This document shows positions 1,357 through 17,645 of a stretch of 64,000 bases of DNA, in pieces. The notes beneath the pieces are model-generated. The model saw only the letters and a program-made list of their open reading frames with translations, did no database searches and was not told where the DNA came from. The stretch spans positions 31,505 through 95,504 of the forward strand of contig JANQPG010000023.1 in the NCBI GenBank assembly GCA_028289545.1, in the 5' to 3' direction. Position 1 is the first letter of the stretch. Each line of letters begins with the position of its first letter. The translations under genes and the position numbers were made by a program. This DNA is from Woeseiaceae bacterium. Lineage in GTDB: Bacteria; Pseudomonadota; Gammaproteobacteria; Steroidobacterales; Woeseiaceae.

Positions 1357-2157
1357 TCAGTCCGCCTGCATGTGACGAATCAGCTTTTCGTCGCAGTAGG
1401 ATTCGCTGTCGAACACCAGCCGCTCCTGCATGAGCTGCAGCTGGTGCACCAGAAACATCAGGAAGATGCTGATCAAAAGGGCAATGAAGGTCGAGTTGAA
1501 AGCGACACCCAGACTCTGCGTGACGCCGGCAATGTTGCCCTCCACGGCCTGGTCGGCCTGTGCCAGCGCTTCACCGATACCGCGTACGGTGCCGATAAAG
1601 CCGATACTCGGGATGGCCCAGGAAATGTAGCGAATCATGGATAACTCGGACTCGAGCCGTTCGGCTTCCGACTCGCAAATGGTATGTGTGCTGCTGGACA
1701 CGTCCTGGACGTTGCGCGTCGACCCGAAACGCCTGAGCGCGTTCAGGAGTGCGCGCGGCAGCAGCATGCGCTGACGTTCTTCAGGCAGCGCCTGTACCTG
1801 GCGCGCAAACTCACGCGTGTCCTCCGGGAGTATTCGCATCCCCTCGGCAACGGGCACGAGATCCACGTCCAGTAGCTTGCGCTCGCGGCCAATGGTTACG
1901 GCCTTGTAGGCCATAATCGCCAGCGCCCAGAACATCAGTATGAAACAGGCCTCCTGTTCCAGGTCCTTGATCAACACCCAGATCCGGCGTTCACGAACGT
2001 AGTCCGGGTCCGCTTCCGCCGCCAGGTTTTGCTCTTCGATAATCTGTGCGGCGTTCGGTCGCACGACCGACACGTAAAACGCGTGTACGACGATTACGGC
2101 AATAATCAGCGCAAACAGCTGGAACACGAACTCGATCGGTATGTTCTTTTTCTTCAT
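1357..2157 (-). CDS. MotA/TolQ/ExbB proton channel family protein
   Basis: 266 aa; ISWAIPSIGFIGTVRGIGEAL...GVTQSLGVAFNSTFIALLISIFLMFLVHQLQ is the TolQ/ExbB/MotA core; N-terminal TM segments. Confidence 0.85.
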   Translation of the reverse strand: MKKKNIPIEFVFQLFALIIAVIVVHAFYVSVVRPNAAQIIEEQNLAAEADPDYVRERRIWVLIKDLEQEACFILMFWALAIMAYKAVTIGRERKLLDVDLVPVAEGMRILPEDTREFARQVQALPEERQRMLLPRALLNALRRFGSTRNVQDVSSSTHTICESEAERLESELSMIRYISWAIPSIGFIGTVRGIGEALAQADQAVEGNIAGVTQSLGVAFNSTFIALLISIFLMFLVHQLQLMQERLVFDSESYCDEKLIRHMQAD

Positions 2158-2176
2158 AGGCTAGTACTGCGAAACA

Positions 2177-2485
2177 CTAAATGTCGGTAGGAAAAGCAAT
2201 GGGTGCGTCGGCCGGAATGTCCTCGCTGGGGACAAAATCGTCGTCGTCGTTCGGATCGAAACCCTGCGCATCCAGCAGCGGATCGTCCGGCCCCAGATCG
2301 AGCTCGTCGTCATCGGCCGGTGTCTCGGGCGACTCTTCAGCCGCCTCTGCGGTGTCGTCCGGGGCCGGCGTGTCGGGCGTCGCCTCTTCCTCCTGCGCAT
2401 TGGCGGCCGCAAGAAGCGTTCCCAGCAGCAACACTGGCAACAGGCGATACGTCAATGACGGCAGCAAGCGGGTTAACACCTGCAT
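2177..2485 (-). CDS. small secreted acidic protein
   Basis: Signal peptide MQVLTRLLPSLTYRLLPVLLLGTLLAAANAQ then Asp/Glu/Pro-rich tail; AGGAGG immediately upstream of ATG at 2485. Confidence 0.65.
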   Translation of the reverse strand: MQVLTRLLPSLTYRLLPVLLLGTLLAAANAQEEEATPDTPAPDDTAEAAEESPETPADDDELDLGPDDPLLDAQGFDPNDDDDFVPSEDIPADAPIAFPTDI

Positions 2486-2576
2486 GGGGCACCTCCTCGG
2501 CATCGTCGCACGATAGCGTACGCAATCATTGGACCGCAGGGCATCACAATTGTCTCACGATTTATTGTCCTGCAAT

Positions 2577-5006
2577 TCACTCATCGAGGTTGCGCGCAAT
2601 CCTGAAACCAACGTCGGAGCGCGCCTCGTCGCCGTGATCGCGATAGCTGAGCCTGAGTTCGGTCATGCCGCCATGCCGCCATCCGGAGCCGCGGATGACG
2701 CGCGTGTTGCCACGCTCTGGACCGAGAGGATCCGTCACCCGCTGAGTCCGGCCCGGTGTCGGCACGGAGTAGTAGTCGTTTACCCACTCCGCCACGTTGC
2801 CGCCGCCGTCGGCAAGTCCGGCGGCATTTGTGCCGAAACTCCCGACGGGCGCCGTCGACGCAAAACCGTCGTCGTATCCCGGTATTAGCGTCGGCGCAAT
2901 GCCGTCGGCAGACTGGTCCGCAAAGTTGCCGGCATCGCGGCGCGGCGGCCAGTCTTCGCCCCAGGGATACCGAAGTGCGCCTGCGTTGCCTTCGTAGCGT
3001 AACGCCCACGTCCACTCCGCTTCGGTCGGCAACCGGTAACCGTTGGGAAACGGCCGGATTGCCACCCACTCACCAAACTCTTCCTTGTACACAGGCTCCA
3101 ACCCCTCCCGGGCGCTGAGCCAGTTGCAGTACTGCACGGCCTGCGACCAGGTCACGTTGGCAACGGGATTGTTGTCTCCCGCCATCGAGGCATGTACGTC
3201 GCTCCCGGAGTCGTGCGCCGGATCGAAGGCGGCAAACTGTTTGTTCGTGATTTCGTGCACGCCGATCAGGAACGGCCGGCTGATCGATACGGGCACGATC
3301 ACCTCGTTGGCGCGGCGACCCTGCTCGCGGCGCGACGCTCCCAGGTCGAAGCTGCCCGCCTCGATACGCCGCAGTACGTGTCCGAGCGTCGACTCCTGCT
3401 CACGCTGCACCGACGCCGCCGCAACTTCTTCCAGACTGCGCAACCGCGCCGCCAGGGTCTGCGGATAGCCGGGTCGCGGCGTCACGGTGCGCGTCCAGGT
3501 TTCGTAACCGGCCTTTCGCACCTCTATACGTTTGGGCGCAGAGCTGAGGTCGAGCGTCGTGTTGCCCGTACCCCGCGCGCGGCCGTCGACGTACACGCCC
3601 GCATCTGCCGGCGATACGTTAACCGTCACGCGCCCGGTGCGCGCGCTCAAATCCACGCTGAGTTCCTCGCTGGCGGCCGATCGCAAACGTACCTGCCGCG
3701 TCGCCGAGCCATAGCCGGCACGCGACAGGCCGATCGTGTAGTCGATGTCCGGCGACAGATCGAGCGTCAGCGGGCTTTGGCCGCGATAGCGGCCGTCCAC
3801 GGTCACGTTTGCGCCGCGCGGTATCGTGGTTACCCTGAGCCGCGCGTCCGCCGCCTCGAGGCGCACCGTGGGCAACGTCCGTTCGGTATTCGGCTCCGCC
3901 ACCACGCTGCCGTCCCAGGCCTTGAAGCCTTCGCGGACAATCGACAACGTGTGCTTACCCTCGAGCAGTTCCAGCACGGCCGGCGTCTCTCCCGCGGCTT
4001 TGTCATCTACAAAGACCGTGGCGCCCGACGGCTCGGAATTCAGCGTAACGCGAGACCAGCGCGGCACGAGTTGTACGGTAATCCGGGATTGCTGACCAAG
4101 GCCCTCAAGGCGGAATGCGTCGGAGAACGGCAGGTAGCGCTCCGAGAGCACCTCTACCGAATACGTGCCCGGTTCCAGTTCGACCGGCCCCAGCGGAGCG
4201 GCGCCGACGTGCACTCCGTTGATGTTGACGGTCGCCTCGGCGCCGTCGGTCACGTCCACCGTGACTTCTCCGGGTCGGCGCCTCAACTCGACCTCGATCG
4301 TTCTATTCGGCGCCTCGTCGACGACAAAATCCATACTGAGGTCGTAGTAGCCCGCCTTCTCGACCTGCAGCGTGTATTCCCCCTGCCGCAACAACACGCG
4401 GTTACCGAGCGGTAGCTTGAACCAGCCGCCGCTGATACTGAGGCTGTCCGGCTCGTCCGGGTTGACGTCGAACTCGATCGACTTGGACGTAAACAGTAAC
4501 CACGCCGCGAGAACAAGCACCGCAAGGCCGCCGCTCACAACCCAACGCAGCGTGTGTCGCTCCGTGGGCGGCGCTGCGGCGCGCGCCTCACTTGCGCGCT
4601 TGAATGCGGTGGGCGCGATCGCCTCTTCGGCAGCCGCCGCGGCATCGCCCGGCATTTCAGGCGGACGAGTCACGTAGGCACTGTCTTCGAGACGCACGTT
4701 CAACACGGCACGCGAACCGCTTACGCCGACGTCGATACGGCTGCCAAAATACTCGAAGACGTCGCCGTCTTGCAGGCGCCGGCTCGCCGTCAGGGGCTCG
4801 CCGTTCAGTTTCACGGAACCGTCGCGACGAACCGGCTGCAGGAACGGCGCGCCGTCGAGCAGATCGAGAACCAGCAGCGGACCGCCACCCGGACCCGGCA
4901 GCCTCAGGTCACTGTCGCTGCCCGTGCCGATACGCAGCGGCAGCTGGGCGCCGGTAACAACCCGCTCTCCCTCGACGTCGCTGATCAGTAGCTGTTCGAT
5001 GCTCAA
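2577..5006 (-). CDS. membrane protein: FHA-like N-terminus, TM helix, multiple PEGA repeats, SUMF1/FGE-sulfatase-fold C-terminus
   Basis: 809 aa; TM VVSGGLAVLVLAAWLLF; repeated P.GA.V.VDG...G.TP..L.L..G.....V...GY PEGA units; C-terminal PFLIGVHEITNKQF...GYRLPTEAEWTWALRY...GGNVAEWVND...RVIRGSGWR. TTG start overlaps kinase stop (TTGA). Confidence 0.85.
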   Translation of the reverse strand: MSIEQLLISDVEGERVVTGAQLPLRIGTGSDSDLRLPGPGGGPLLVLDLLDGAPFLQPVRRDGSVKLNGEPLTASRRLQDGDVFEYFGSRIDVGVSGSRAVLNVRLEDSAYVTRPPEMPGDAAAAAEEAIAPTAFKRASEARAAAPPTERHTLRWVVSGGLAVLVLAAWLLFTSKSIEFDVNPDEPDSLSISGGWFKLPLGNRVLLRQGEYTLQVEKAGYYDLSMDFVVDEAPNRTIEVELRRRPGEVTVDVTDGAEATVNINGVHVGAAPLGPVELEPGTYSVEVLSERYLPFSDAFRLEGLGQQSRITVQLVPRWSRVTLNSEPSGATVFVDDKAAGETPAVLELLEGKHTLSIVREGFKAWDGSVVAEPNTERTLPTVRLEAADARLRVTTIPRGANVTVDGRYRGQSPLTLDLSPDIDYTIGLSRAGYGSATRQVRLRSAASEELSVDLSARTGRVTVNVSPADAGVYVDGRARGTGNTTLDLSSAPKRIEVRKAGYETWTRTVTPRPGYPQTLAARLRSLEEVAAASVQREQESTLGHVLRRIEAGSFDLGASRREQGRRANEVIVPVSISRPFLIGVHEITNKQFAAFDPAHDSGSDVHASMAGDNNPVANVTWSQAVQYCNWLSAREGLEPVYKEEFGEWVAIRPFPNGYRLPTEAEWTWALRYEGNAGALRYPWGEDWPPRRDAGNFADQSADGIAPTLIPGYDDGFASTAPVGSFGTNAAGLADGGGNVAEWVNDYYSVPTPGRTQRVTDPLGPERGNTRVIRGSGWRHGGMTELRLSYRDHGDEARSDVGFRIARNLDE

Positions 5007-7357
5007 ATTGGTTCCTCGCAGCGCACGACGACGGGCTGCATGTCGAGTTCGGGAGCAACCCGAAACTCAATCCGAACGTCGCGATAGCCGGGCCGGTTGC
5101 CGACCGCAACGTAGTTACCGGGCCGCAGTTTAAGTTGCTGCGACGAAAAACGCCCGAGTCGCCCGACGCGGAACACCGATACCTCGGTCAGATTGTCGGA
5201 AACAAACTCGACTTCAAGCGGCGTCGCGGCCCTTTTCAACAGGCGCGACAGCTCGTCTTTCTGCCCGTTGAGCCGAGGACCGGCGTCGCTCATGCGCGTG
5301 ACGGTCAGTACCAGGTTGGTTGCGCGCTGCATGGTTGACGGCGCGCTGAGCGAATCGGGTTCCGCAATATACTCGTCGAGCTGCTTGTGCAGACCCACCA
5401 TGCCGCGTGCATCGCTCAGACCCGTCTTGGCAAACTCGAGGTTATCGTCGAGTTCGAGAATCTGCTCATAGTGCGTGACGGCATCCTCCCAGCGCTCCTC
5501 ACGTTTGAGCTCGAACACCTCCTGTTCGAGGCGGCTGATCGTCGCCAACCGAATACCCTGGTCGACCTGCAGCAAACCGTCCGCCGGTTCGGTCGAGCCC
5601 GGCCTCAGCTGCTGCGCCATGCGAAACGCCGCACGCGCGGCCGGGTAGTCGTTGACGGTAAGCGCCGCAAGCCCTTCGCTCATTCTCGCGTCGAAATCCA
5701 TTTGCTGCGCGGTACCCTGGACGCGCTCGTAGCCTTCCCGGGCGGGCCGCCACTCCGGGTCCAGTTCCATGGCCTGCTTGAAGCTTTCGCGAGCCGCATC
5801 GAGTTCGAGCTGGTCCTCATAGCGTAGCCCACTCTCGACGAGCGCCAGCACGGCGTCGAGGTTACGCGCACGCTCGCGGCCTTCCTGAGCGCGGCGGCTG
5901 CCGGGACTGATCGCGACGGCCAGATCGAAATTCCTGAGCGCCTCGACGGAATCCGCGTTGGCCAGCGCCTCCTCGGCCGCTTCGAGCGTGTCGCTGAAAA
6001 CCTGATCCACCTCCTCGAGCAGCGGCTCGAGACGTTCGATAGCCCGGCTGTATTCCTCGGTCGCGAGCGCGTAGTCGCGGGCCAGATAGGCCTCGTCGCC
6101 CGACTCGTAGGCGGCTCTCGCCTGTGAGTAACGCAGCCCGCCCCAGCGTTCGACGGCGCGCGCTTCGAGCGTCTCCATGTGCGATAGCAGGCGGCCGAGC
6201 ACAGCCTCGGTTGACTGTCTCGCCTCCACGCGCTCGTCGCGCCCGGGCAGTCCCGGCTCAGGCTCGTCGGCGGCCGGTTCCGGGGCGGCTTCCGGAACCG
6301 CTTCCTCAGCGACCGGGTCGGCGACGTCTACCGGCGCCGTCGTAAGCCTCCCGGGCAGATAAAACACGACGAACAGCAACAGCGTTACGAGTACGGCCAA
6401 CCCCAGCCACAGTGAACGCTGGGTTACCCCGCCGCCCGCAGCCGCCGACGCCTCGGGTGCCTTGAAGCCGCTTTTTGTAGGGGTCTTGCGTTCGCGAACC
6501 TCGATGACTTCGGCGTTGTCGGCAGCCCTGGAGCTTCGCAGCTCGCGCGGCGCCGCACCCGGCTTGAAGCCGGCGTCCGACAACGCGTCGAGTACCTCAC
6601 CGGCATCGGGCCGCTCCGCGGCATCCTTGGCAAGCATGGCTGCCAGGAGCGTCGACACGGCGGGCGGCAGATCGGGGACGTCTTCGGCAGTCAGCAAAGG
6701 CGGCACCCGATCCGCAATGCCGCGCTCGAGATTATCGCCGCCGTACGGCGAGCGGCCGCTCAACAGTTCGTAGGCGAGTCCGCCCAGCGCAAACACGTCG
6801 TCCGCGGGCGTCGCCGCTTCGCCCTTGAGGCTCTCGGGCGACGCCGCGGCAACAGAGCCGCCGCTCGCCAGTTCACCTGCGCTGGCGGCCACGCCAAAAT
6901 CAATCAGATAAGGGGCACCGTTCCGGTCGAGGAGTACGTTCGCCGCTTTGACGTCCCGGTGCACCACGCCCTTGCCGTGTGCGTAGCGCAGAGCATCGGC
7001 CAGTGCGGCAACCACGGGCAGCACGGCAGCAGCGCCCTTTCCGGTAAGTGCCGAAACGTCGGGACCGTCAAGGTGCTGCAGGCTGTAGAACGCGCCGCCG
7101 GCGTCGTCGTGAAACTCGAAAACCCGCACGATATGCGGGTGCAACAGGCGAATACTCGTTTGCCATTCCTGGCGCAATCGGGCTCGGTTACCCGCGGGCG
7201 ATACGAGAACCTTGAGCGCAACTCGCGATCGCGTCACGCGGTCGTCGGCGAGCCACGTTGCCGCTTCGCCGCCTCGACCCAGCTCGCGGACCAGGGCGTA
7301 ACGATTGGCCAGCTCCGCACCCGGCTTGAGGTTCTGCCGCGTGTCTTCAGCAGTCAT
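5003..7357 (-). CDS. transmembrane Ser/Thr protein kinase with TPR-like and PEGA-like C-terminus
   Basis: 784 aa; ALKVL, VVHRDVKAANVLL, IDFGVA kinase motifs; TM LWLGLAVLVTLLLFVVFYLPG; tandem A..A...Y..A TPR-like repeats; end LRPGNYVAVGNRPGYRDVRIEFRV. Confidence 0.88.
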   Translation of the reverse strand: MTAEDTRQNLKPGAELANRYALVRELGRGGEAATWLADDRVTRSRVALKVLVSPAGNRARLRQEWQTSIRLLHPHIVRVFEFHDDAGGAFYSLQHLDGPDVSALTGKGAAAVLPVVAALADALRYAHGKGVVHRDVKAANVLLDRNGAPYLIDFGVAASAGELASGGSVAAASPESLKGEAATPADDVFALGGLAYELLSGRSPYGGDNLERGIADRVPPLLTAEDVPDLPPAVSTLLAAMLAKDAAERPDAGEVLDALSDAGFKPGAAPRELRSSRAADNAEVIEVRERKTPTKSGFKAPEASAAAGGGVTQRSLWLGLAVLVTLLLFVVFYLPGRLTTAPVDVADPVAEEAVPEAAPEPAADEPEPGLPGRDERVEARQSTEAVLGRLLSHMETLEARAVERWGGLRYSQARAAYESGDEAYLARDYALATEEYSRAIERLEPLLEEVDQVFSDTLEAAEEALANADSVEALRNFDLAVAISPGSRRAQEGRERARNLDAVLALVESGLRYEDQLELDAARESFKQAMELDPEWRPAREGYERVQGTAQQMDFDARMSEGLAALTVNDYPAARAAFRMAQQLRPGSTEPADGLLQVDQGIRLATISRLEQEVFELKREERWEDAVTHYEQILELDDNLEFAKTGLSDARGMVGLHKQLDEYIAEPDSLSAPSTMQRATNLVLTVTRMSDAGPRLNGQKDELSRLLKRAATPLEVEFVSDNLTEVSVFRVGRLGRFSSQQLKLRPGNYVAVGNRPGYRDVRIEFRVAPELDMQPVVVRCEEPI

Positions 7358-7372
7358 GGAAGGAGTGGGAGT

Positions 7373-8599
7373 TCAGGTTTCCGGCGCGCGCTCTGGCGTA
7401 CCCAGATCAATGTCGGCGGGGAATCCTGTCTCGGCTTCGTAGATTTCCTTCAGGAGGCGCCGCCAGCTCTCGTACTGCGCCGCGGCCGTCCCGGTCAGGC
7501 GGCGTGTCTCTCCGGATACCGTCACCAGCATGGGAGCCGCCTCCGAACCGAACGACTCGGAGAGCTCCTTGATCGCTTCCGCGTGCAGGCTCGCCTCCGT
7601 ACGTCGGGTAAAGCCCGCAAAAATCTGCTCGATACCCTGCGACACGCCGATCGCCTGAAGCGAATTCTTCGTGCGACGCCTCGTCGAGCTCGAGCTGTCC
7701 GTGTCCATCGCCAGCGACCCGGCGAGAACAACCACGCCCATGAGCGCCCGCATCGTGCCCGAGCGGCGCACCTGGCGGTAGTTGACTGATTCTTCGCGAG
7801 CCGTCTTGCGCCAGGCGTGATACGGGATTGCGATACCGTAGTAGAAGTTCGCGTAGTGCTCATTCAGCGTGTCCACCACGAGCCGGTCACGTTCGCGAAT
7901 TTGCCGGAGGCGATCGACAGCCGGGTCGCCTTCCGCCGGCAGGCGGCTGAGACCGACAATACCGTCCTTGTCCGTCGTCAGATAATCCGCATACGGCTGC
8001 GGCGACATGTCCGCAAAGAAGCGCAGCTCCGAAATCTGCCGGACACGCGCAATGCGCTCACCGTCCAGCTGGGCGACGTACGCCTGCAAGTCGTTGGCGA
8101 TGTCGTTGAAGACCTTCTGATAAGGGTCCTGGCGGCGGTCGCGAGTACTCGAGTACGAGGAAATCCCCGTCTGGGTCTTGTAGTCCTTCTCGTACCACAG
8201 TGCCCCACTCGCGTCTTCCACACGGATGCCGATCGTCACGAATTCGCCGTCCGACTTCTGGACAGCCCCGCTGATCAATACATCGGTAAACGCCAGGCGA
8301 GACGGCACGACGCGTACGGCGCCCCAATGTCCCGTGCCCTGCAGAGTGGCCTTCAGGTGATACGGCAGGTAACGCGCCTCCGCCGCGCGTATTTCGCCGT
8401 ACACACCCGTCTTGTCCGGGTCGTTGTCCTCCGCAACGCCGTCGTCGAATTCGACGATGCCGATATCGAGAAGCAATCCTTCCTCGACCGGCTCCGACGC
8501 AACGACAAGCTCGGTCTCGTCAGCGTTCACGACTTCGTTAACAGAACACCCTTGAGCGGCAAACAGGGCAACAGCCGCAATTCCAGTAACGCGCAACAT
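7373..8599 (-). CDS. predicted lipoprotein, unknown function
   Basis: 408 aa; lipobox-like MLRVTGIAAVALFAAQGCS; within the kinase cluster. Confidence 0.75.
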   Translation of the reverse strand: MLRVTGIAAVALFAAQGCSVNEVVNADETELVVASEPVEEGLLLDIGIVEFDDGVAEDNDPDKTGVYGEIRAAEARYLPYHLKATLQGTGHWGAVRVVPSRLAFTDVLISGAVQKSDGEFVTIGIRVEDASGALWYEKDYKTQTGISSYSSTRDRRQDPYQKVFNDIANDLQAYVAQLDGERIARVRQISELRFFADMSPQPYADYLTTDKDGIVGLSRLPAEGDPAVDRLRQIRERDRLVVDTLNEHYANFYYGIAIPYHAWRKTAREESVNYRQVRRSGTMRALMGVVVLAGSLAMDTDSSSSTRRRTKNSLQAIGVSQGIEQIFAGFTRRTEASLHAEAIKELSESFGSEAAPMLVTVSGETRRLTGTAAAQYESWRRLLKEIYEAETGFPADIDLGTPERAPET

Positions 8600-8617
8600 A
8601 TTCAGACAGGCCGCTCC

Positions 8618-9775
8618 CTACAGTCCCTGGTACTTCCGATACTCCTCCCACAGCCGGTCGCGCAGCTCGGGATCTTCCTCGGCCAGCGCCGCCTCACGAA
8701 GCTGCCGAGCAATGATGTCATCGTCGGCTACCATCGGTATATCTTCGGGCGTGCGTTCGCGAATTTCCTGATCGGACATGCCCGCCGTCGGCGACTCGCG
8801 CGGCGCCATGGCGTCGTTGATGACCGCGACGGAACCGCCGCTGCCGTCACCTTCCTGTTCGCCCAGACTAATGCCGCCGCTGCCGCCGCCACCGCCGCCG
8901 AACCCTTCGGTGTTGCGCCCTACGGCGGCAATTTCTTCCTGTTCCTCAAGCAGCACGTCGTCAAAATCGCCCAGCGATTCGTCGAGGATTCCACCGAGGC
9001 GTTCGGCCCGCTCCGAGCCACTTTCTCCCGGGAACTCGCCGACGCTTCCGGCAGCACCTCCACCCGACGATCCACCGCCTCCCGAGGCGCCGCCGCCACT
9101 GGCGCCAGAACTACCGCTGGCTCCGCCGCCACCGCTCGCGCCGTCGCTGTCCGCATTGGAAGAAGCGCCACCACCGCCTATGCAGTCGCCGTCCTGTCCC
9201 ATACCGCCGACGCCGCCCGGGAGCGAGCCCGTGTCGCCGCAGTCGCCACCCGATTGACCGTCGCCATCGCCGTCACCTTCACCCGACTCGCCGCCGCTCG
9301 GAAAGCCGCCCACATCGGGCATGCCGCCGCCTGTTCCGGCGCCGTCCGGGCCCGGCATGCCGCCGCCCCCGGGCGCAGGAATGCCCGCTCCGGGCATGCC
9401 ACCACCGGAACCCGCACTGCCGCCGCTCGAGGAACCGCCGGTCGAACCGCCCGGCACGCCTCCGCCAGGCATGCCTCCTCCTTGGCTGCCGCCGGGCGCA
9501 CCGCCTCCCGGCATGCCTCCGCCCGAGGAACCGCCGCCGGAGGAACCGCCGCCCGAGGAACCGCCTCCTGACGAGCCGCCTCCCGACGAGCCGCCTCCCG
9601 ACGAACCGCCGCCTGACGAACCACCGCCGGAAGAGCCGCCGCTGCTGGGTGCTCCGCCTCCGGATTGGCTCGAGGACTCGTCATTGCAGGCCGTGGAGAT
9701 TGCAAGGGCCGCAAGGGCCAGAAGGACTGGCCGGGCCCAGGCCGGTATGGAAGCGAGCTTGAGTGGATTTTTCAT
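8618..9775 (-). CDS. Gly/Ser-rich low-complexity predicted lipoprotein
   Basis: ATG at 9775: MKNPLKLASIPAWARPVLLALAALAISTAC (lipobox) then (SSGGG)n and GGGMPGG repeats; C-terminus non-repetitive. Confidence 0.7.
   Translation of the reverse strand: MKNPLKLASIPAWARPVLLALAALAISTACNDESSSQSGGGAPSSGGSSGGGSSGGGSSGGGSSGGGSSGGGSSGGGSSGGGSSGGGMPGGGAPGGSQGGGMPGGGVPGGSTGGSSSGGSAGSGGGMPGAGIPAPGGGGMPGPDGAGTGGGMPDVGGFPSGGESGEGDGDGDGQSGGDCGDTGSLPGGVGGMGQDGDCIGGGGASSNADSDGASGGGGASGSSGASGGGASGGGGSSGGGAAGSVGEFPGESGSERAERLGGILDESLGDFDDVLLEEQEEIAAVGRNTEGFGGGGGGSGGISLGEQEGDGSGGSVAVINDAMAPRESPTAGMSDQEIRERTPEDIPMVADDDIIARQLREAALAEEDPELRDRLWEEYRKYQGL
9520..9643. repeat. 15-bp tandem repeat encoding SSGGG pentapeptides (about 8 copies)
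   Basis: gaggaaccgccgccg / gacgagccgcctccc units repeated head-to-tail on + strand. Confidence 0.85.
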
Positions 9776-10023: not shown

Positions 10024-10875
10024 TCAGTCGATCGCGGGCTTGCGGTGCGGCCGGTAGGGCTTGCGGAACAGTATGAGAGAGAGATCGTCGGGTTTGCAGG
10101 GCTTGAGGCTCTCCGGATCGGCCATTCGGCGGGCCGCGAGGCTGACGATCCGGTCCGCCGCCACGTCGAGGGCGCCGCGCCGCATGCGATCGACAACCTC
10201 GGTGACGTGCACGTTATCGGTCAGCCCGTCGCTCGCCAGCAGCACCGTGTCGCGAGGGTTCAGCACCACGCCCGCGCCGACGTCGATACGCATATCGCTG
10301 TTGCCGACAAAATTCGACACCAGATGTCGCTCCTCGTGATGCAGCGCCTCGCGCTCGTTGAGAAAGCCCGCTTCGACGGCAAAACCGGTCGGGGAATGCG
10401 GCAAAGTCTGCAGGCGAACCCTGCCGCGCTGACCCGCAATCAGCGCCTCCGAGTCGCCAACCTGGTAACTGCGGGCCAAATGGCCTTCGATCGTCACGAT
10501 AGTCATGGTCGTGGCCGAGCCACGGGCTTCAGCCATGACCGCCGCGTTGGCGGCTTCGATGCCGTTGAGAATCGCCGTGCGCAACAGCGTGGTCTTGCCC
10601 AGAGACACGTTCAGCGATTCCGCCAGCGCCCGCACCGCAAGCAGCGATGCGCGCTTCCCGGCGGGCAGCCCGCCCGCCCCGTCGGCCACGACCAGCACGC
10701 AGGCATCCGGTCCCCACGGAATCCCGGCCACCGTGTCCTCGTTCTCGGTCAGCTTGTCAGGAGCTCGCGCGGTAAAGGCCACAAGCTGGCCGCCGCCCAT
10801 TACGACCTGCTTCGTTTCTGGCCTGTCACTGCCATCGAGCAACAGCATGCCTTCGGCCACGAGCGCTTCAGTCAT
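10024..10875 (-). CDS. PP2C-family Ser/Thr protein phosphatase
   Basis: ENEDTVAG..., VVADGAGGLPAG, QVGDSEALI, LASDGLTDNV; ATG at 10875 overlaps upstream kinase stop (ATGACTGA). Confidence 0.88.
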   Translation of the reverse strand: MTEALVAEGMLLLDGSDRPETKQVVMGGGQLVAFTARAPDKLTENEDTVAGIPWGPDACVLVVADGAGGLPAGKRASLLAVRALAESLNVSLGKTTLLRTAILNGIEAANAAVMAEARGSATTMTIVTIEGHLARSYQVGDSEALIAGQRGRVRLQTLPHSPTGFAVEAGFLNEREALHHEERHLVSNFVGNSDMRIDVGAGVVLNPRDTVLLASDGLTDNVHVTEVVDRMRRGALDVAADRIVSLAARRMADPESLKPCKPDDLSLILFRKPYRPHRKPAID

Positions 10876-12241
10876 GCACCACCGGCTCTCGGCACCAGGC
10901 GCAGTAATTCCAGAACTCTTTCGCAATTCCCCAGCCGCACGCCTTGCAGCTCGTTTTGCTGCCCTCGAGCTTCCAAGCCTGGCGAACCTTACTGCGGCAC
11001 CACGGACAGTAGCGCATGAACGGCATGATTGGGCCTCGACAGCGTTTGTTGCTGCACTCCGCGGTGTATCGCTTATCGGGGTAGCGGCGGGTCGTCTCTT
11101 CGAGAAAGCCGGGACCGTAGCACCAGGCGCAGTAGTCCCAGTCGTTCTTTACCCCGCGCTGGCACCGAGGACAGCTCGACGGCATCGACGACTCGGCGCC
11201 CCGGGTCGGGTTGTCGAAACCGCACCAGGGACAGGCCTGCATGCTCTCTGAAACGGGGCCCTCGCAGTGTCTGCACTGATGCTGGCAGTCGAGCGTTTTG
11301 CCGAATTGTCGCTTGAACTCGCGCCAGCGAATCTGCTGCCAGCTGACGCTGTGAGTGCCGGTACTGCGGCCGCTTCCCCGCTTCCGGCCACCAATCTGTC
11401 GGCGTGCGCGGCTCTGCAACCGCTCGAAGGCCGCCAGCATGATGCGGGCGTCCGCGAAGCGTTGCTTGGGATCGAGTTGAATGGCCTGCTTCAGGAAATT
11501 GACGAACTCCGGCCGGACGCGTTGCGCGAGGCGCTCCTGACCCGGCAGCGGCCATTCGAACGGCCACTCCGGCAGGCGCCCCGATAGCAGGCGATAGATA
11601 ACGAGCCCCATCGAAAACACATCCGACTGAAACTTCGGACGTCCCATCGCCTGTTCCGGCGCAATGTAGTCGATCGTACCCGACCCCGACGCCTTCAACG
11701 TGCGGGTCCGCAGTTTGGCAAACCCGTAGTCGCCGAGCTTGAGGCGATTGCCGGGAAACAGCAGGAAGTTCTCCGGCTTGATATCGCAGTGAATCACCTT
11801 GTTGTCATGAGCGTGCGCGAGGCCGCTCAAAGCCTGGCCGACCAGTTCGAGGGCGTTCGCCGTGGAAATACGCCGCTCGATGCGGTCGGCAAGGGACTCC
11901 TCGCCGAGTTCCATTGCGATCACGAAGTAGTCGTCAATATAGGCGGCGTTCAGGACACCGAGGAGGTTGGGATGGTTGAGGCGCGTGGCCACCTGTACTT
12001 CGTGAAGAAACTCGTCGTGTCCCGTGTGATCGGCATGCCTCGGTATTTTCAGAGCGACGCGCATACGCTGAATACGATCGAACGCCCGGTAGACGTCCGC
12101 CAGCGGTCCGGACGCAATACGACCGAGGATCGTGTATTTGCCGAGTTTTTGGCGCGCTCTCAACAAGTGAAGGTTCTTTTGGGTAGAAGGCGGCGATTCG
12201 AACGTACTCTTGTGCACCGCAAGCGAGAGCGCATGAGACAT
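10868..12241 (-). CDS. Ser/Thr protein kinase with four C-terminal zinc-ribbon modules
   Basis: YTILGRIASGPLADVYRAFD, VALKI, VIHCDIKPENFLL, LGDYGFAKL; C-terminus CRHCEGPVSESMQACPWCG, CPRCQRGVKNDWDYCAWC, CSNKRCRGPIMPFMRYCPWC, CKACGWGIAKEFWNYCAWC. Confidence 0.88.
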   Translation of the reverse strand: MSHALSLAVHKSTFESPPSTQKNLHLLRARQKLGKYTILGRIASGPLADVYRAFDRIQRMRVALKIPRHADHTGHDEFLHEVQVATRLNHPNLLGVLNAAYIDDYFVIAMELGEESLADRIERRISTANALELVGQALSGLAHAHDNKVIHCDIKPENFLLFPGNRLKLGDYGFAKLRTRTLKASGSGTIDYIAPEQAMGRPKFQSDVFSMGLVIYRLLSGRLPEWPFEWPLPGQERLAQRVRPEFVNFLKQAIQLDPKQRFADARIMLAAFERLQSRARRQIGGRKRGSGRSTGTHSVSWQQIRWREFKRQFGKTLDCQHQCRHCEGPVSESMQACPWCGFDNPTRGAESSMPSSCPRCQRGVKNDWDYCAWCYGPGFLEETTRRYPDKRYTAECSNKRCRGPIMPFMRYCPWCRSKVRQAWKLEGSKTSCKACGWGIAKEFWNYCAWCREPVVHD

Positions 12242-12323
12242 CAAGCGGTAATAATGTAAGCCCGCGCGGCAAGCAGTCAAGCTCGCAAAACGGCCAGCGA
12301 GGCAGACAGTTCCGCAATCAAAC

Positions 12324-12352: not shown

Positions 12353-12402
12353 TCGCAAACCTACGCTTCGCAACGTGCTCATTGCAACCGGGTGAAGGAC
12401 TT

Positions 12403-13191
12403 ATGCAGCACTACCGGACCCTGTGGCTCTCCGACGTTCACCTTGGCGCCATTCAGTCCCGCGCGGCCGATCTCACGCACTTTCTGAGTTCGGTCAGCGC
12501 CGATACGATCTATCTGGTCGGCGACATCGTCGACCTCGAGCGGCTGAAGGTCAAACCCACGTTCATGGAGTCGCACCGCACGCTCCTAGGGCACCTGTTC
12601 GCGATTGCCGCCGGGCCGTCCCGGGTCGTGTACATTCCCGGGAACCACGACGTCGAGTTCCGCCGAATGGCCGGCCAGGAACTCTTCGGCGTCGAGATTG
12701 CGCTCGAAGCCGAACACGTGAGCGCGAGCGGCGAACGTTACCTCGTCTTTCATGGCGACGCGCTCGACGCCGCCATTCGCAAAGGCACGAATCTGGAGCG
12801 CTTTGCTTCAGCCGCTTACACGGTCATGGTCGAAGCGGACGTCCGCTTCAATGCACTGCGCTCCCGTTTTGGCGGTCAGTTCTCGCCGCTGTCGACCCGC
12901 ATCAAGAACAAACTCAAAGCAGCCAACGAATACATCCTGCGCTTTGAAGAAACCGCTGCGGCCTATTCGGCCTCGCGGGGTTTCGATGGCGTGATTTGCG
13001 GCCATATACACCGCCCGGGCGCCCGTCGGATTAACGGCGTGCGCTACGTGAATGACGGCGACTGGGTCGAGCATCGCACAGCGGTCGCCGAAGAGGCCGA
13101 CGGCACGCTGCACCTGCTGCACTACCGTTCGGACGGCATCGACCGCGAACCCCTGTTCCTCGATCGGAGCCGCAGACCGCTCGCAGCCTGA
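12403..13191 (+). CDS. plcP: metallophosphoesterase of the LpxH-like/PlcP family
   Basis: HYRTLWLSDVHLG...YLVGDIVDLERLK...VVYIPGNHD...YLVFHGDALD...DGVICGHIHRPGARRINGVRYVNDGDWVE; calcineurin-type motifs with PlcP-like C-terminal GDWVE. Confidence 0.75.
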   Translation: MQHYRTLWLSDVHLGAIQSRAADLTHFLSSVSADTIYLVGDIVDLERLKVKPTFMESHRTLLGHLFAIAAGPSRVVYIPGNHDVEFRRMAGQELFGVEIALEAEHVSASGERYLVFHGDALDAAIRKGTNLERFASAAYTVMVEADVRFNALRSRFGGQFSPLSTRIKNKLKAANEYILRFEETAAAYSASRGFDGVICGHIHRPGARRINGVRYVNDGDWVEHRTAVAEEADGTLHLLHYRSDGIDREPLFLDRSRRPLAA

Positions 13192-13201
13192 CCGCGGACA
13201 A

Positions 13202-13231
13202 CCCGCGTTCCGGGGAAGTCCGGAACGCGGG
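13202..13231. terminator. 12-bp perfect hairpin downstream of plcP-like gene
   Basis: cccgcgttccgg-ggaagt-ccggaacgcggg, 10 nt after stop; no clear T tract. Confidence 0.5.
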
Positions 13232-13305
13232 AAGCGACAGCCGTATTGCCGCAGTGTAGGCTTGCCGCATCGAGGCTGGCCGCATCGTCAGGAAGCTGCA
13301 GGTAA

Positions 13306-13677
13306 ATGGGAAAACCTGGAAACACCGGCATTCGCCGAGTCATTCGCGCAACACGATACTCCGCACAGGGCCTGGCTCACGCCTGGCGACACGAAGCCGC
13401 GTTCCGGCAGGAAGTCGTTGTAAGCCTGTTGCTGTTCCCGGCGGCCTTGTGGCTGGGACAAACGCCGCTGGAAAGGCTGCTGCTCGTTGCGACCTGCATA
13501 TTCGTGCTCGTCGTTGAACTGCTCAACTCGGCCGTCGAGGCGGCCATCGATCGCGTGGGCGAAGAGCAGCACGAACTGTCGGGACGCGCAAAAGACATGG
13601 GCTCAGCAGCCGTCATGGTCAGCCTGATGCTGAGCGGCGCCGTGTGGATCATGTTCCTGTGGCAACGCTTTGCGTGA
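13306..13677 (+). CDS. dgkA: diacylglycerol kinase (DgkA)
   Basis: HAWRHEAAFRQEV...VELLNSAVEAAIDRVGEEQHELSGRAKDMGSAAVM. Confidence 0.92.
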   Translation: MGKPGNTGIRRVIRATRYSAQGLAHAWRHEAAFRQEVVVSLLLFPAALWLGQTPLERLLLVATCIFVLVVELLNSAVEAAIDRVGEEQHELSGRAKDMGSAAVMVSLMLSGAVWIMFLWQRFA

Positions 13678-13719
13678 GTCGCAAACCCTCGAGCGAAGCA
13701 GAGATATCGAGAGACCGGG

Positions 13720-13980
13720 CTGGCCCGGAAATCTCACCGGTATCGCGGATTCAGGCGGGGTTCGCAGCCGTCCTGGGGCCGCTCTGGAGCGAAAGCGGTA
13801 GCGGTCGCTACCGCTTGAGTGAAGAGCCAGCCAGGGCGAGCGAGAAACCGCCTGAACCGCAATAGGTCAGCGCCGGAACAGAAGGCTGTTCTGAAAACGC
13901 ACTCCAGAACCGTGACATGGTCTGAATTATCGGCACCGTGCGCGCCAGGCGTTGGCCGACCGGTGAGATTTTCGGGCTAG
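13720..13980. mobile_element. candidate MITE-like element with 21-bp imperfect terminal inverted repeats
   Basis: Left ctggcccggaaatctcaccgg (13720-13740), right ccggtgagattttcgggctag (13960-13980), 19/21 complementary; internal near-perfect palindrome at 13793-13816. Confidence 0.5.
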
Positions 13981-14501
13981 GCCACCAGCGTAATGCTGGC
14001 CGTCGCAATGGCCGCTCCCAGCCCGGCACCGGCCACCACGTCGCTCGGATAGTGCAGGCCCAGGATCACCCGGGACGCCGCCACGAGTAGCGCAAACGGT
14101 ACGAGCACAAACAACAGGCTCGGCTCGTAGCTGCCGTAGAAAACGGCGAAACTCACGGCGTGCAGCGTATGGCCCGACGGAAAGCTGTAGCGATCGAGCG
14201 GCGCGGTTCCACACTCGATCTCGCCGTGTTTGATGTACGGCCGCTCGCGAACCAGTCGTCGCTTCAACACCGTGTAGACGAGGATACCGACACCCGCCGT
14301 CGCCAGCGTGTGTGCGACAAAGAAGCCGAGCTGATGGGTTTGCTGCAACGCACAAACCAGACCAAATCCCACCCACGCGGGGTAGTCGCCAAGACGCGAA
14401 ACCGCGGTGAAGAGCGCCTTCACGGCGCGCCAGCGGCTCAGCGCGTTGATTCGGCGACACGCATCGAGCTCTAAATCGTTAATGTAATCAATAACTACCA
14501 T
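13977..14501 (-). CDS. PAP2-family phosphatase
   Basis: KRRLVRERPY...FPSGHTLHAVSF...ASRVILGLHYPSDVVAGA: the three PAP2 motifs. Confidence 0.92.
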   Translation of the reverse strand: MVVIDYINDLELDACRRINALSRWRAVKALFTAVSRLGDYPAWVGFGLVCALQQTHQLGFFVAHTLATAGVGILVYTVLKRRLVRERPYIKHGEIECGTAPLDRYSFPSGHTLHAVSFAVFYGSYEPSLLFVLVPFALLVAASRVILGLHYPSDVVAGAGLGAAIATASITLVA

Positions 14502-14546
14502 ACCGTCGTACCGGTTACATTACGCGGCCGATTCTCTGCCCCACAG

Positions 14547-14575
14547 ACGACAGCGACGTGACCGCGCCGTGACAG
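14547..14575 (-). promoter_or_regulatory. candidate triple PhoB box upstream of PAP2 gene
   Basis: Minus strand CTGTCAC-ggcg-CGGTCAC-gtcg-CTGTCGT, exact 11-bp period. Confidence 0.6.
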
Positions 14576-14608
14576 ATCGATGAAAGTCGAGGCCAGCATA
14601 TCATTGGC

Positions 14609-14626
14609 CTGTTATATATCTGTAAC
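14609..14626 (+). promoter_or_regulatory. candidate PhoB box upstream of GT4 gene
   Basis: CTGTTATATATCTGTAAC, 16/18 match to CTGTCATAWAWCTGTCAY; third partial unit ATTTAAC one period downstream. Confidence 0.6.
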
Positions 14627-14651
14627 ACTAATTTAACGCGCTCGGCCAACC

Positions 14652-15692
14652 ATGCCCGGCATGCGCATTGCGATTGTGACGGACGCTTGGGAACCGCAGG
14701 TCAACGGAGTCGTGCGGACCCTCGGGAGGACCCGGGATCAGCTGATTGCCATGGGTCACGAGGTGCTGCTGGTAACGCCGGCCGGCCGGCGGACCGTACC
14801 CATGCCCACGTATCCTGAGATCCGCTTGTCGCTGTTCGCAGGGCCCGGCGTGCGACGCGATCTCGACCGCTTCGAACCCGACTGCATCCACATTGCGACC
14901 GAGGGCCCGCTCGGTCTGGCCGCTCGGCGCTACTGCCTGCGCACCCACGTGCCGTTCACGACCGCCTACCACACACAGTTTCCCGAGTACGTGCGTGCGC
15001 GGGCGCCGATCCCGATCGCCTGGACCGTTCGCCTGTTGCGCTGGTTCCACGGGCCGGCGGTGCGAACCATGGTGCCCACAAAGGCCATCCAGACCAAGCT
15101 GACCGACCGCGGCTTCGACGACGTCGTCATCTGGTCGCGCGGCGTGGACACCGCACTGTTCAACCCGTCGACCCCGCACGACTACGGGCTCGAAAGGCCC
15201 ATTTGGGTCTACCTGGGCCGTGTCGCGGTCGAAAAAAACATCGAAGCGTTTCTCGAACTCGACCTGGCGGGCAGCAAAGTCATCATTGGGGACGGACCGG
15301 ACCGCGAAGGGCTTGCCCGACGCTTCCCCAACTGCCACTTTCTGGGCTATCGATTCGGCGCGGACCTCGCCAATCACCTTGCGGGTGGCGACGTTTTTGT
15401 GTTCCCGAGCAAGACCGATACCTTCGGGCTAGTGATGCTTGAAGCCATGGCCTCCGGGCTGCCCGTTGCGGCATTACCCGTGGATGGCCCCATTGACGTC
15501 GTCCGCCACGGCGAGACAGGGATTCTCGACGAAGACCTGAAGGCTGCCTGTCTCTCGGCGCTCAGTCTGGACCGCGAGGCGTGCCGCCGCTACGCCGAAA
15601 AACGCAGCTGGCGACGCGCAACCGAACAGTTCGAGTCCTATCTGGCGCCACGGGTCCTCGAAACGGCGTCGGACCAACCCGCAAGCAGCTGA
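14652..15692 (+). CDS. GT4-family glycosyltransferase (candidate glycolipid synthase, Agt-like)
   Basis: MRIAIVTDAWEPQVNGVVRTL...SRGVDTALFNP...YLGRVAVEKNIEAFL...VFPSKTDTFGLVMLEAMASGLPVAA. Confidence 0.85.
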   Translation: MPGMRIAIVTDAWEPQVNGVVRTLGRTRDQLIAMGHEVLLVTPAGRRTVPMPTYPEIRLSLFAGPGVRRDLDRFEPDCIHIATEGPLGLAARRYCLRTHVPFTTAYHTQFPEYVRARAPIPIAWTVRLLRWFHGPAVRTMVPTKAIQTKLTDRGFDDVVIWSRGVDTALFNPSTPHDYGLERPIWVYLGRVAVEKNIEAFLELDLAGSKVIIGDGPDREGLARRFPNCHFLGYRFGADLANHLAGGDVFVFPSKTDTFGLVMLEAMASGLPVAALPVDGPIDVVRHGETGILDEDLKAACLSALSLDREACRRYAEKRSWRRATEQFESYLAPRVLETASDQPASS

Positions 15693-17125
15693 CCGCGAAC
15701 GTCAGAGGTCATTGCCGGCGTAAACACGCGCTCGCTTTGCCAGCGCTCCGCCAGATGTTCGATGCCTTCAATTACGCCGACCTGCAGTGCAGCCAGTGAC
15801 GCCGCGCCGAGCACGGTCGACTCGATGTTGACGGGGCGCTCGACCGGCGTGTCCAGCACGCCGGCCAGAAACTCGAGGAACCAATCGTTGGCGGCCATGC
15901 CGCCGTCGACCCGCACGACAGCCGGGCTAATGCCGTCCTCGCGCATCGCAACGACCAGGTCGTGAGTCTGGAACGCAATGGCTTGCAGCGTGGCGGTTAC
16001 GATCGTTTCGCGGCTGCTGCCGCGGGACAGGCCGACGATCGCGCCCCGGGCGTGCGGATCCCAGTACGGCGCACCCAGGCCGGCAAATGCCGGCACGACG
16101 TACACGTCGTCCACGATGCCGGTTGCGCGCGCAATCGCTTCCGACTCGGGTGCGGTCTCGATCATGCGCAATTCGTCACGCAGCCACTGCATGGCGGAGC
16201 CCGCGACAAACACGCTGCCCTCGAGACCGTAAGTCACCTGGCCGTCGAGATCGCTCGCGATGGTCGTGAGCAGCTGATTACCCGACTTCAACGCCTCGCC
16301 GCCCGTGTTCGCAATCATGAAGCAGCCCGTGCCGTAGGTGCTCTTGGTCATGCCGTGCTCGAAACCGGCCTGCCCGATGAGCGCGGCCTGCTGATCACCC
16401 GCAATGCCGCCGATGGGCGTTCCGTCCTGCAGAAACTCGACTCGAGTTTCGGCGAAATCGGAAGCGCAAGGCCGAACCTCGGGCAGCAGCGCCTTCGGTA
16501 TGTCGAACAGCCTCAGGAGCTCGTCGTCCCAGCACCGCTCGTGAATGTTATAGAGCATCGTGCGCGAAGCGTTGGTTGCGTCCGTCACGTGGGCATGGCC
16601 CGCCGACAGTCGCCACACGAGGAACGTATCGATCGTGCCGAAGGCAAGCTCGCCACGGCTCGCGCGTTCCCGCGCGCCCTCGACATGGTCGAGCAGCCAC
16701 TTGAGCTTGGTGGCGGAAAAATACGGGTCGAGGCGCAGTCCGGTTTTGTCGATGACCTTCTTTTCGTAACCCTCGCGGCGCAGCGATTCACAGTATTTCG
16801 CCGTGCGGCGATCCTGCCAGACAATCGCGTTCGCCAGCGGCCGGCCCGTTTTGCGATCCCACAGCACCGTCGTTTCCCGCTGGTTGGTGATGCCGATCGC
16901 CGTGACCGCAGCCGGCTCGACGCGGGCCTTCGCAAGCGCCTCTGACGTGACCGCCGTGACGGATGCCCAGATGGCCTCGGGATCGTGCTCGACCCAGCCC
17001 GAGCTGGGATAAATCTGCGCAAATTCCTGCTGCGCCGATTCGATCGGCTCGAGCGTGCGATCAAACACCACGGCGCGGCTGCTGCTCGTCCCCTGGTCGA
17101 TGGCCAGTATGACTCTGTCGTTCAT
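15638..17125 (-). CDS. glpK: glycerol kinase
   Basis: MNDRVILAIDQGTSSSRAVVFD...TNQRETTVLWD...GIAGDQQAALIGQAGFEHGMTKSTYGTGCFM; N-terminal 61 aa of the track ORF are spurious. Confidence 0.95.
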   Translation of the reverse strand: MNDRVILAIDQGTSSSRAVVFDRTLEPIESAQQEFAQIYPSSGWVEHDPEAIWASVTAVTSEALAKARVEPAAVTAIGITNQRETTVLWDRKTGRPLANAIVWQDRRTAKYCESLRREGYEKKVIDKTGLRLDPYFSATKLKWLLDHVEGARERASRGELAFGTIDTFLVWRLSAGHAHVTDATNASRTMLYNIHERCWDDELLRLFDIPKALLPEVRPCASDFAETRVEFLQDGTPIGGIAGDQQAALIGQAGFEHGMTKSTYGTGCFMIANTGGEALKSGNQLLTTIASDLDGQVTYGLEGSVFVAGSAMQWLRDELRMIETAPESEAIARATGIVDDVYVVPAFAGLGAPYWDPHARGAIVGLSRGSSRETIVTATLQAIAFQTHDLVVAMREDGISPAVVRVDGGMAANDWFLEFLAGVLDTPVERPVNIESTVLGAASLAALQVGVIEGIEHLAERWQSERVFTPAMTSDVRGQLLAGWSDAVSRTRGAR

Positions 17126-17645
17126 CAATGTTCTCCGTAGGGACTGATCCCCGTGTACAGCGGCTCGCGAATCCGCATGCGCCGACCCGCTTCCGACGGC
17201 GCGTCGCCGCGAGGAAGCTCGGCCGAGAAAACCGCGATCTTGTCGAGGACGGACTTGGGCCAGGGCGAAACCTTGCGCTGCCTGAGGTCGACATGCAGGT
17301 TCATCCACTCGCAGGTGGCGGCGAGCCTCGAGTCTTCGGCTCGGAACATGCGTTGAAACTGGTGCAGGCGTTTCTCGTCGTAGGCCAGTACCTGGGTCGT
17401 AATCACGAACTCGTCATCGAGCGCCAACTCGGACTGATAGGTCACGTGACTCTCGACCGCGAAGGTCGATCCGTGAGTCCTCGCGATGCTCTCTTCGGTA
17501 ATGCCGAAACGACTCCATAGCGCATCGACGGCAAGGTCGAACGCGAGCAGGTAATAGGCAACGTTCATGTGCCGATTCACGTCGATCCAGTCGCTGACGA
17601 CGGAACCTCGGTACACCTCCGTGCCGGGCAGATCGGGACTCCCCG

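Follow-up and report, generated by a model that had tools for sequence, protein, structure and literature searches.

A Ser/Thr protein kinase with a predicted duplicated double zinc ribbon tail, present or absent as a whole, beside a PP2C-type phosphatase in Woeseiaceae

The kinase and phosphatase genes

The window, a 64,000-nucleotide stretch of a Woeseiaceae genome, encodes on its minus strand a Ser/Thr protein kinase with a C-terminal tail of four ribbons (10868..12241; 457 aa if translation begins at the probable ATG). The complete open reading frame runs from 10868 to 12280 on the minus strand, its long form beginning at a TTG at 12280. The ATG at 12241 is the likely start, and the homology of relatives begins near residue 38 of the long frame. 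The protein kinase domain (11453..12136, minus strand; Pfam Pkinase, E 1.4e-36) had been called intact in the initial annotation on the basis of its HCDIKPEN and DYG motifs, and this is borne out: the catalytic lysine and the APE motif are present as well, which completes the set that characterizes Hanks-type Ser/Thr kinases (catalytic Lys, HxDxKxxN, DxG, APE), and the kinase is of the non-RD type. Structure comparison recovers a kinase fold, with PknB among the best solved matches, and the full-length AlphaFold2 model is confident for the kinase and poor for ribbon 2. The kinase is probably cytosolic and active. The same genome encodes 16 kinases, three PP2Cs and a single four-ribbon tail. 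PADLOC matches to the defence genes mad6 and PD-T4-6 were rejected as indications of a defence role, since they cover the kinase domain and a second kinase is matched too.

The adjacent gene encodes a PP2C-type Ser/Thr phosphatase (10024..10875, minus strand) with intact metal-binding Asp motifs. Its ATG at 10875 precedes the kinase stop codon (10870-10868), and the two genes share 8 nt (ATGACTGA), confirming the overlap of start and stop reported at the outset. In 43 of 73 relatives, an ATG or GTG in the PP2C frame lies within the end of the kinase gene, giving an overlap of 4 or 8 nt. The motifs that mark a PP2C (ED, DGxGG, GD, SDG and DD) are conserved in about 60 relatives, and the kinase-PP2C pair is conserved in Woeseiaceae, in other families of the order and in Planctomycetota.

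Architecture and conservation of the tail

Between the kinase domain and the tail lies a variable linker (11282..11410, minus strand) that ends in a conserved predicted helix, WRxxxWREFxRQF. Four cysteine units then follow on the minus strand, together spanning 11275-10892: ribbon 1, CRHC-x10-CPWC (11222..11275); ribbon 2, CPRC-x10-CAWC (11120..11173); ribbon 3, CSNKRC-x10-CPWC, with a conserved MPFMRYCPWC (10997..11056); and ribbon 4, CKAC-x11-CAWC (10892..10948). The initial annotation had described four CxxC-x(n)-C-x-W-C units; there are indeed four, but unit 3 opens with C-x4-C rather than CxxC. The spacing of the cysteines across the tail is x10, x16, x10 / x21 / x10, x16, x11, so that the 16-residue spacer has the same length in both halves. 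When the units are aligned, as had been proposed, the two halves match end to end over 59 columns (hhalign probability 97.7%). Given this spacing and the way the profiles of the two halves match, the predicted ribbons show a duplicated double zinc ribbon (DZR), A-B-A'-B', rather than four independent modules.

Ribbons 1 and 2 together match Pfam DZR (PF12773) above the family cut-off (30.1 bits versus 27.3), and the same place scores 26 bits, just under the cut-off, in a whole-genome scan. The tail resembles DZR and other short all-Cys zinc ribbons in its paired C-x2-C-x10-C-x2-C units. It differs from DZR in that it consists of two such modules in tandem, with a Trp in each second knuckle, and in that the best-scoring DZR stretch covers ribbons 1-2 only. 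An AlphaFold2 model of the tail alone has a mean pLDDT of 83.4 and a pTM of 0.75 and places short hairpin-like strands at every unit; AlphaFold2 places no metal, and the model is confident without it. The DZR match above cut-off, the all-Cys knuckles and the hairpin-like strands thus support the original assignment as zinc ribbons, for which a duplicated DZR is the better description. The modules are almost certainly zinc-binding, and we infer zinc occupancy from the 16 conserved cysteines, which are consistent with it. Rubredoxins have two Cys knuckles widely separated around one Fe; the knuckles of the tail are 10-11 residues apart, and the tail is not rubredoxin-like. A Foldseek search of the tail against the PDB returned no match with an E value below 0.8, that is, no solved structure resembling the tail, and a PDB sequence search gave only weak matches (best E 0.014), which we do not count as homology.

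A scan of GTDB contigs yielded 78 loci, mostly from Woeseiaceae, with some labelled Chromatiales and about a dozen from Planctomycetota; one of the loci, L079, holds a tail-less relative. All 16 cysteines are kept in the 78 aligned tailed sequences (window included) from these two phyla, two of them differing solely by a local gap where the second Cys of unit 3 would align. Judged by this alignment, such conservation cannot be chance. The spacing of the cysteines is near-invariant as well. Identity to the window is 87% for the tail versus 84% for the kinase domain in the nearest relative, and 45-60% versus 47-58% in distant relatives, whereas in most relatives the linker drops to 21-47%. Thus, the tail is about as strongly conserved as the kinase domain, and the linker is not. 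The invariant tail residues other than Cys include P13, M18, W23, R46, K49, W52, W57, Y76, F92, Y95, K102, W107, W128 and W133.

Distribution of tailed and tail-less kinases

The order was sampled with 117 genomes, in which the orthologous kinase is recognized by E values below 1e-50, compared with 1e-29 or weaker for other kinases. It is present in 52 genomes, 33 with the tail (including G511, where the tail is seen as a fragment at a contig edge) and 19 with the kinase domain only. In 38 kinase loci that were fetched and read, the kinase contains seven or eight CxxC motifs where it is tailed and none where it is tail-less, and no partial tail was seen among them. The tail is therefore all-or-none in the sampled order.

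Tail-less lineages keep the kinase and, where it can be read, the PP2C, as in one tail-less relative (L079) whose kinase is followed directly by the phosphatase. Across the 38 loci, PP2C was matched beside the kinase in nearly all; a match is absent at L104, L118, L133 and L134, and in L104, L118 and L134 the kinase lies at the edge of the contig or stretch. Two other accounts of the tail-less state were rejected. The ribbons have not been relocated to the phosphatase, as inspection of kinase and PP2C in these lineages found no ribbon units, and those loci contain no tail-matching ORF that would encode the tail as a gene of its own.

A tree of the kinase domain (68 rows) requires four changes of tail state, a number also forced by the starred branches. 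With Planctomycetota as the outgroup, four losses of the whole tail would be the simplest reading, although tree counts do not distinguish gains from losses, the outgroup does not form a monophyletic group, and the search that found it relied partly on tail patterns. Beyond the order sample, 85 of 107 family genomes have the tail; in the class sample it occurs in two of 369 genomes, each belonging to the genus of the window, while in the phylum sample it is found in the window only, plus one marginal partial match. Given this distribution, the tail is a lineage feature, shared with Planctomycetota. In the kinase tree, some Planctomycetota kinases group with a family of the window's order (the loci concerned are L065, L068 and L072, and the f186 loci L134-L136), which suggests transfer between phyla. 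A kinase on a contig labelled Gemmatimonadales (L060), with PP2C alongside, is 69% identical to the Woeseiaceae kinase and is probably a binning error.

A comparison of tailed with tail-less proteins looked for columns that are at least 90% conserved among the tailed ones and differ in three or more of the four tail-less lineages. None of the 71 conserved kinase columns and no PP2C column passes; at 80% conservation two kinase columns do (S220 and F228). Two of the four tail-less lineages are single sequences, so this negative is a weak one. A tail acting on a third party would be expected to leave no tail-linked column in kinase or PP2C, and the result speaks weakly for docking of a further partner rather than for internal regulation.

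The neighbouring gene cluster

In Woeseiaceae, the kinase-PP2C pair heads a conserved cluster whose next genes lie on the minus strand of the window. They encode a Gly/Ser-rich lipoprotein-like protein (8618..9775), consisting largely of GGGSSGGG-type repeats and matching no Pfam family; a 408-aa lipoprotein-like protein of no known family (7373..8599); a second Ser/Thr kinase with TPRs and, by eye, a membrane segment (5003..7357); a protein with PEGA repeats and an FGE-sulfatase-like domain (2577..5006), whose N-terminus we read as FHA-like without a Pfam FHA match; and a proton-channel protein of the MotA/TolQ/ExbB family (1357..2157). Outside the window the cluster goes on to encode an FHA protein, two vWA proteins and an OmpA protein; only the window's own genome was read for these four genes. 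The envelope-type cluster comprises window 1357-9775 and L091:6455-10832. The FHA protein (L091:9459-10832) matches Pfam only as FHA; by eye, its N-terminal part resembles an Hsp70/actin-like ATPase.

MotA is found in 99 and vWA in 102 of the 117 genomes of the order, many of them without the zinc-ribbon kinase, and thus the cluster and the kinase-PP2C pair are separable. A vWA gene is present in all 33 tailed genomes, in 15 of the 19 with the tail-less kinase and in 54 of the 65 without the kinase, counts from the sampled order in which genomes are not independent of one another. Dependence of the tail on linkage to the envelope cluster was rejected: in G369 and G476 the cluster is retained although the tail is missing, and in several tailed lineages tail and cluster are unlinked. 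Upstream of the kinase (window 12382-17308) lie genes for a metallophosphoesterase, DgkA, PAP2, a glycosyltransferase and glycerol kinase, several of them syntenic in some relatives; their annotations suggest a lipid or glycolipid set.

Relation to known systems

Zinc-ribbon additions to bacterial kinases are known and mostly unexplained. PMC7159879 (eLife 2020) describes actinobacterial GAP1-N2 systems in which an active kinase fused to a zinc ribbon is encoded beside active PP2C and vWA genes, a theme presented there as restricted to actinobacteria and to GTPase systems. The locus in the window shares with these gene sets a zinc-ribbon kinase, an adjacent PP2C and a vWA gene nearby; it differs in having four ribbons where that description mentions one. 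Among the genes examined around the locus, none is a GAP1-N2 or GTPase gene. The four-ribbon version is thus a variant on a known theme. SpkB of Synechocystis is likewise a Ser/Thr kinase with a Cys-rich extension, but the SpkB extension, as described, is N-terminal and redox-modulated. PknG of Mycobacterium tuberculosis carries a Cys-based metal module that affects activity; unlike the window kinase, it has a single rubredoxin-like module, which precedes the kinase core, and also a TPR domain. Each of these two kinases offers a functional precedent for a Cys-rich module that influences kinase activity. Searches of open-licence literature turned up no four-ribbon kinase, and within that literature neither the four-ribbon duplicated DZR nor its all-or-none distribution seems to have been described.

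The tail has the look of a separable module, for docking or for sensing, attached to a signalling pair of the usual kind. Since related genomes encode both tailed and tail-less forms of this orthologous kinase, each paired with the same phosphatase, these natural pairs make the role of a zinc-ribbon tail directly testable by comparison.

Possible functions of the tail

We hold with moderate confidence that kinase and PP2C would form a two-gene phosphorylation switch, with the tail as the part by which the kinase docks to a partner or substrate. Zinc would be structural in the duplicated DZR, and the resulting rigid unit, with its conserved Trp, Tyr, Arg and Lys residues around CPWC/CAWC, would provide the docking surface; the partner could be encoded in the neighbouring FHA/vWA/MotA/OmpA envelope cluster. 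For docking speaks the persistence of the kinase-PP2C pair without the tail, which is a detachable whole; against it, the tail is present where the envelope cluster is unlinked, and the cluster is present in genomes without the kinase. The initial annotation had suggested a metal- or redox-sensing or a protein-docking platform. The docking half of this proposal is favoured by conservation of the tail at about the level of the kinase domain, by the tail's many invariant residues other than Cys and by its detachability, whereas sensing finds no specific support here despite the related SpkB and PknG.

The main rival is nonetheless a tail that senses redox state or metal, such that oxidation or zinc loss at the ribbons would alter kinase activity. 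Each chain offers sixteen paired thiolates, SpkB activity is modulated by thioredoxin through its Cys-rich N-terminal extension (PMC10651672), and mutation of the rubredoxin domain alters PknG activity (PMC5448819). However, conservation is strong well beyond the cysteines, the kinase domain bears no clear signature of tail presence, and redox or metal genes are absent among the immediate neighbours examined; a sensor is a real but minor possibility. Somewhat less likely still is that the tail works, by docking or sensing, for an envelope machine driven by protons, formed by the MotA/FHA/vWA/OmpA cluster and controlled by the kinase-PP2C pair.

It is unlikely that the tail is mainly an oligomerization or stability module without a partner of its own: several lineages lack it and keep the catalytic pair, which makes it dispensable there, but its conserved aromatic and basic residues exceed the needs of metal binding. 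Recruitment of the kinase to nucleic acid or ribosomes is very unlikely, even though zinc ribbons often bind nucleic acids (PMC3581485) and the tail is rich in Arg and Lys, as ribbon 3 resembles ribosomal protein L33 too faintly to be significant (E 0.12) and the conserved neighbourhood partners are envelope and phospho-signalling proteins.
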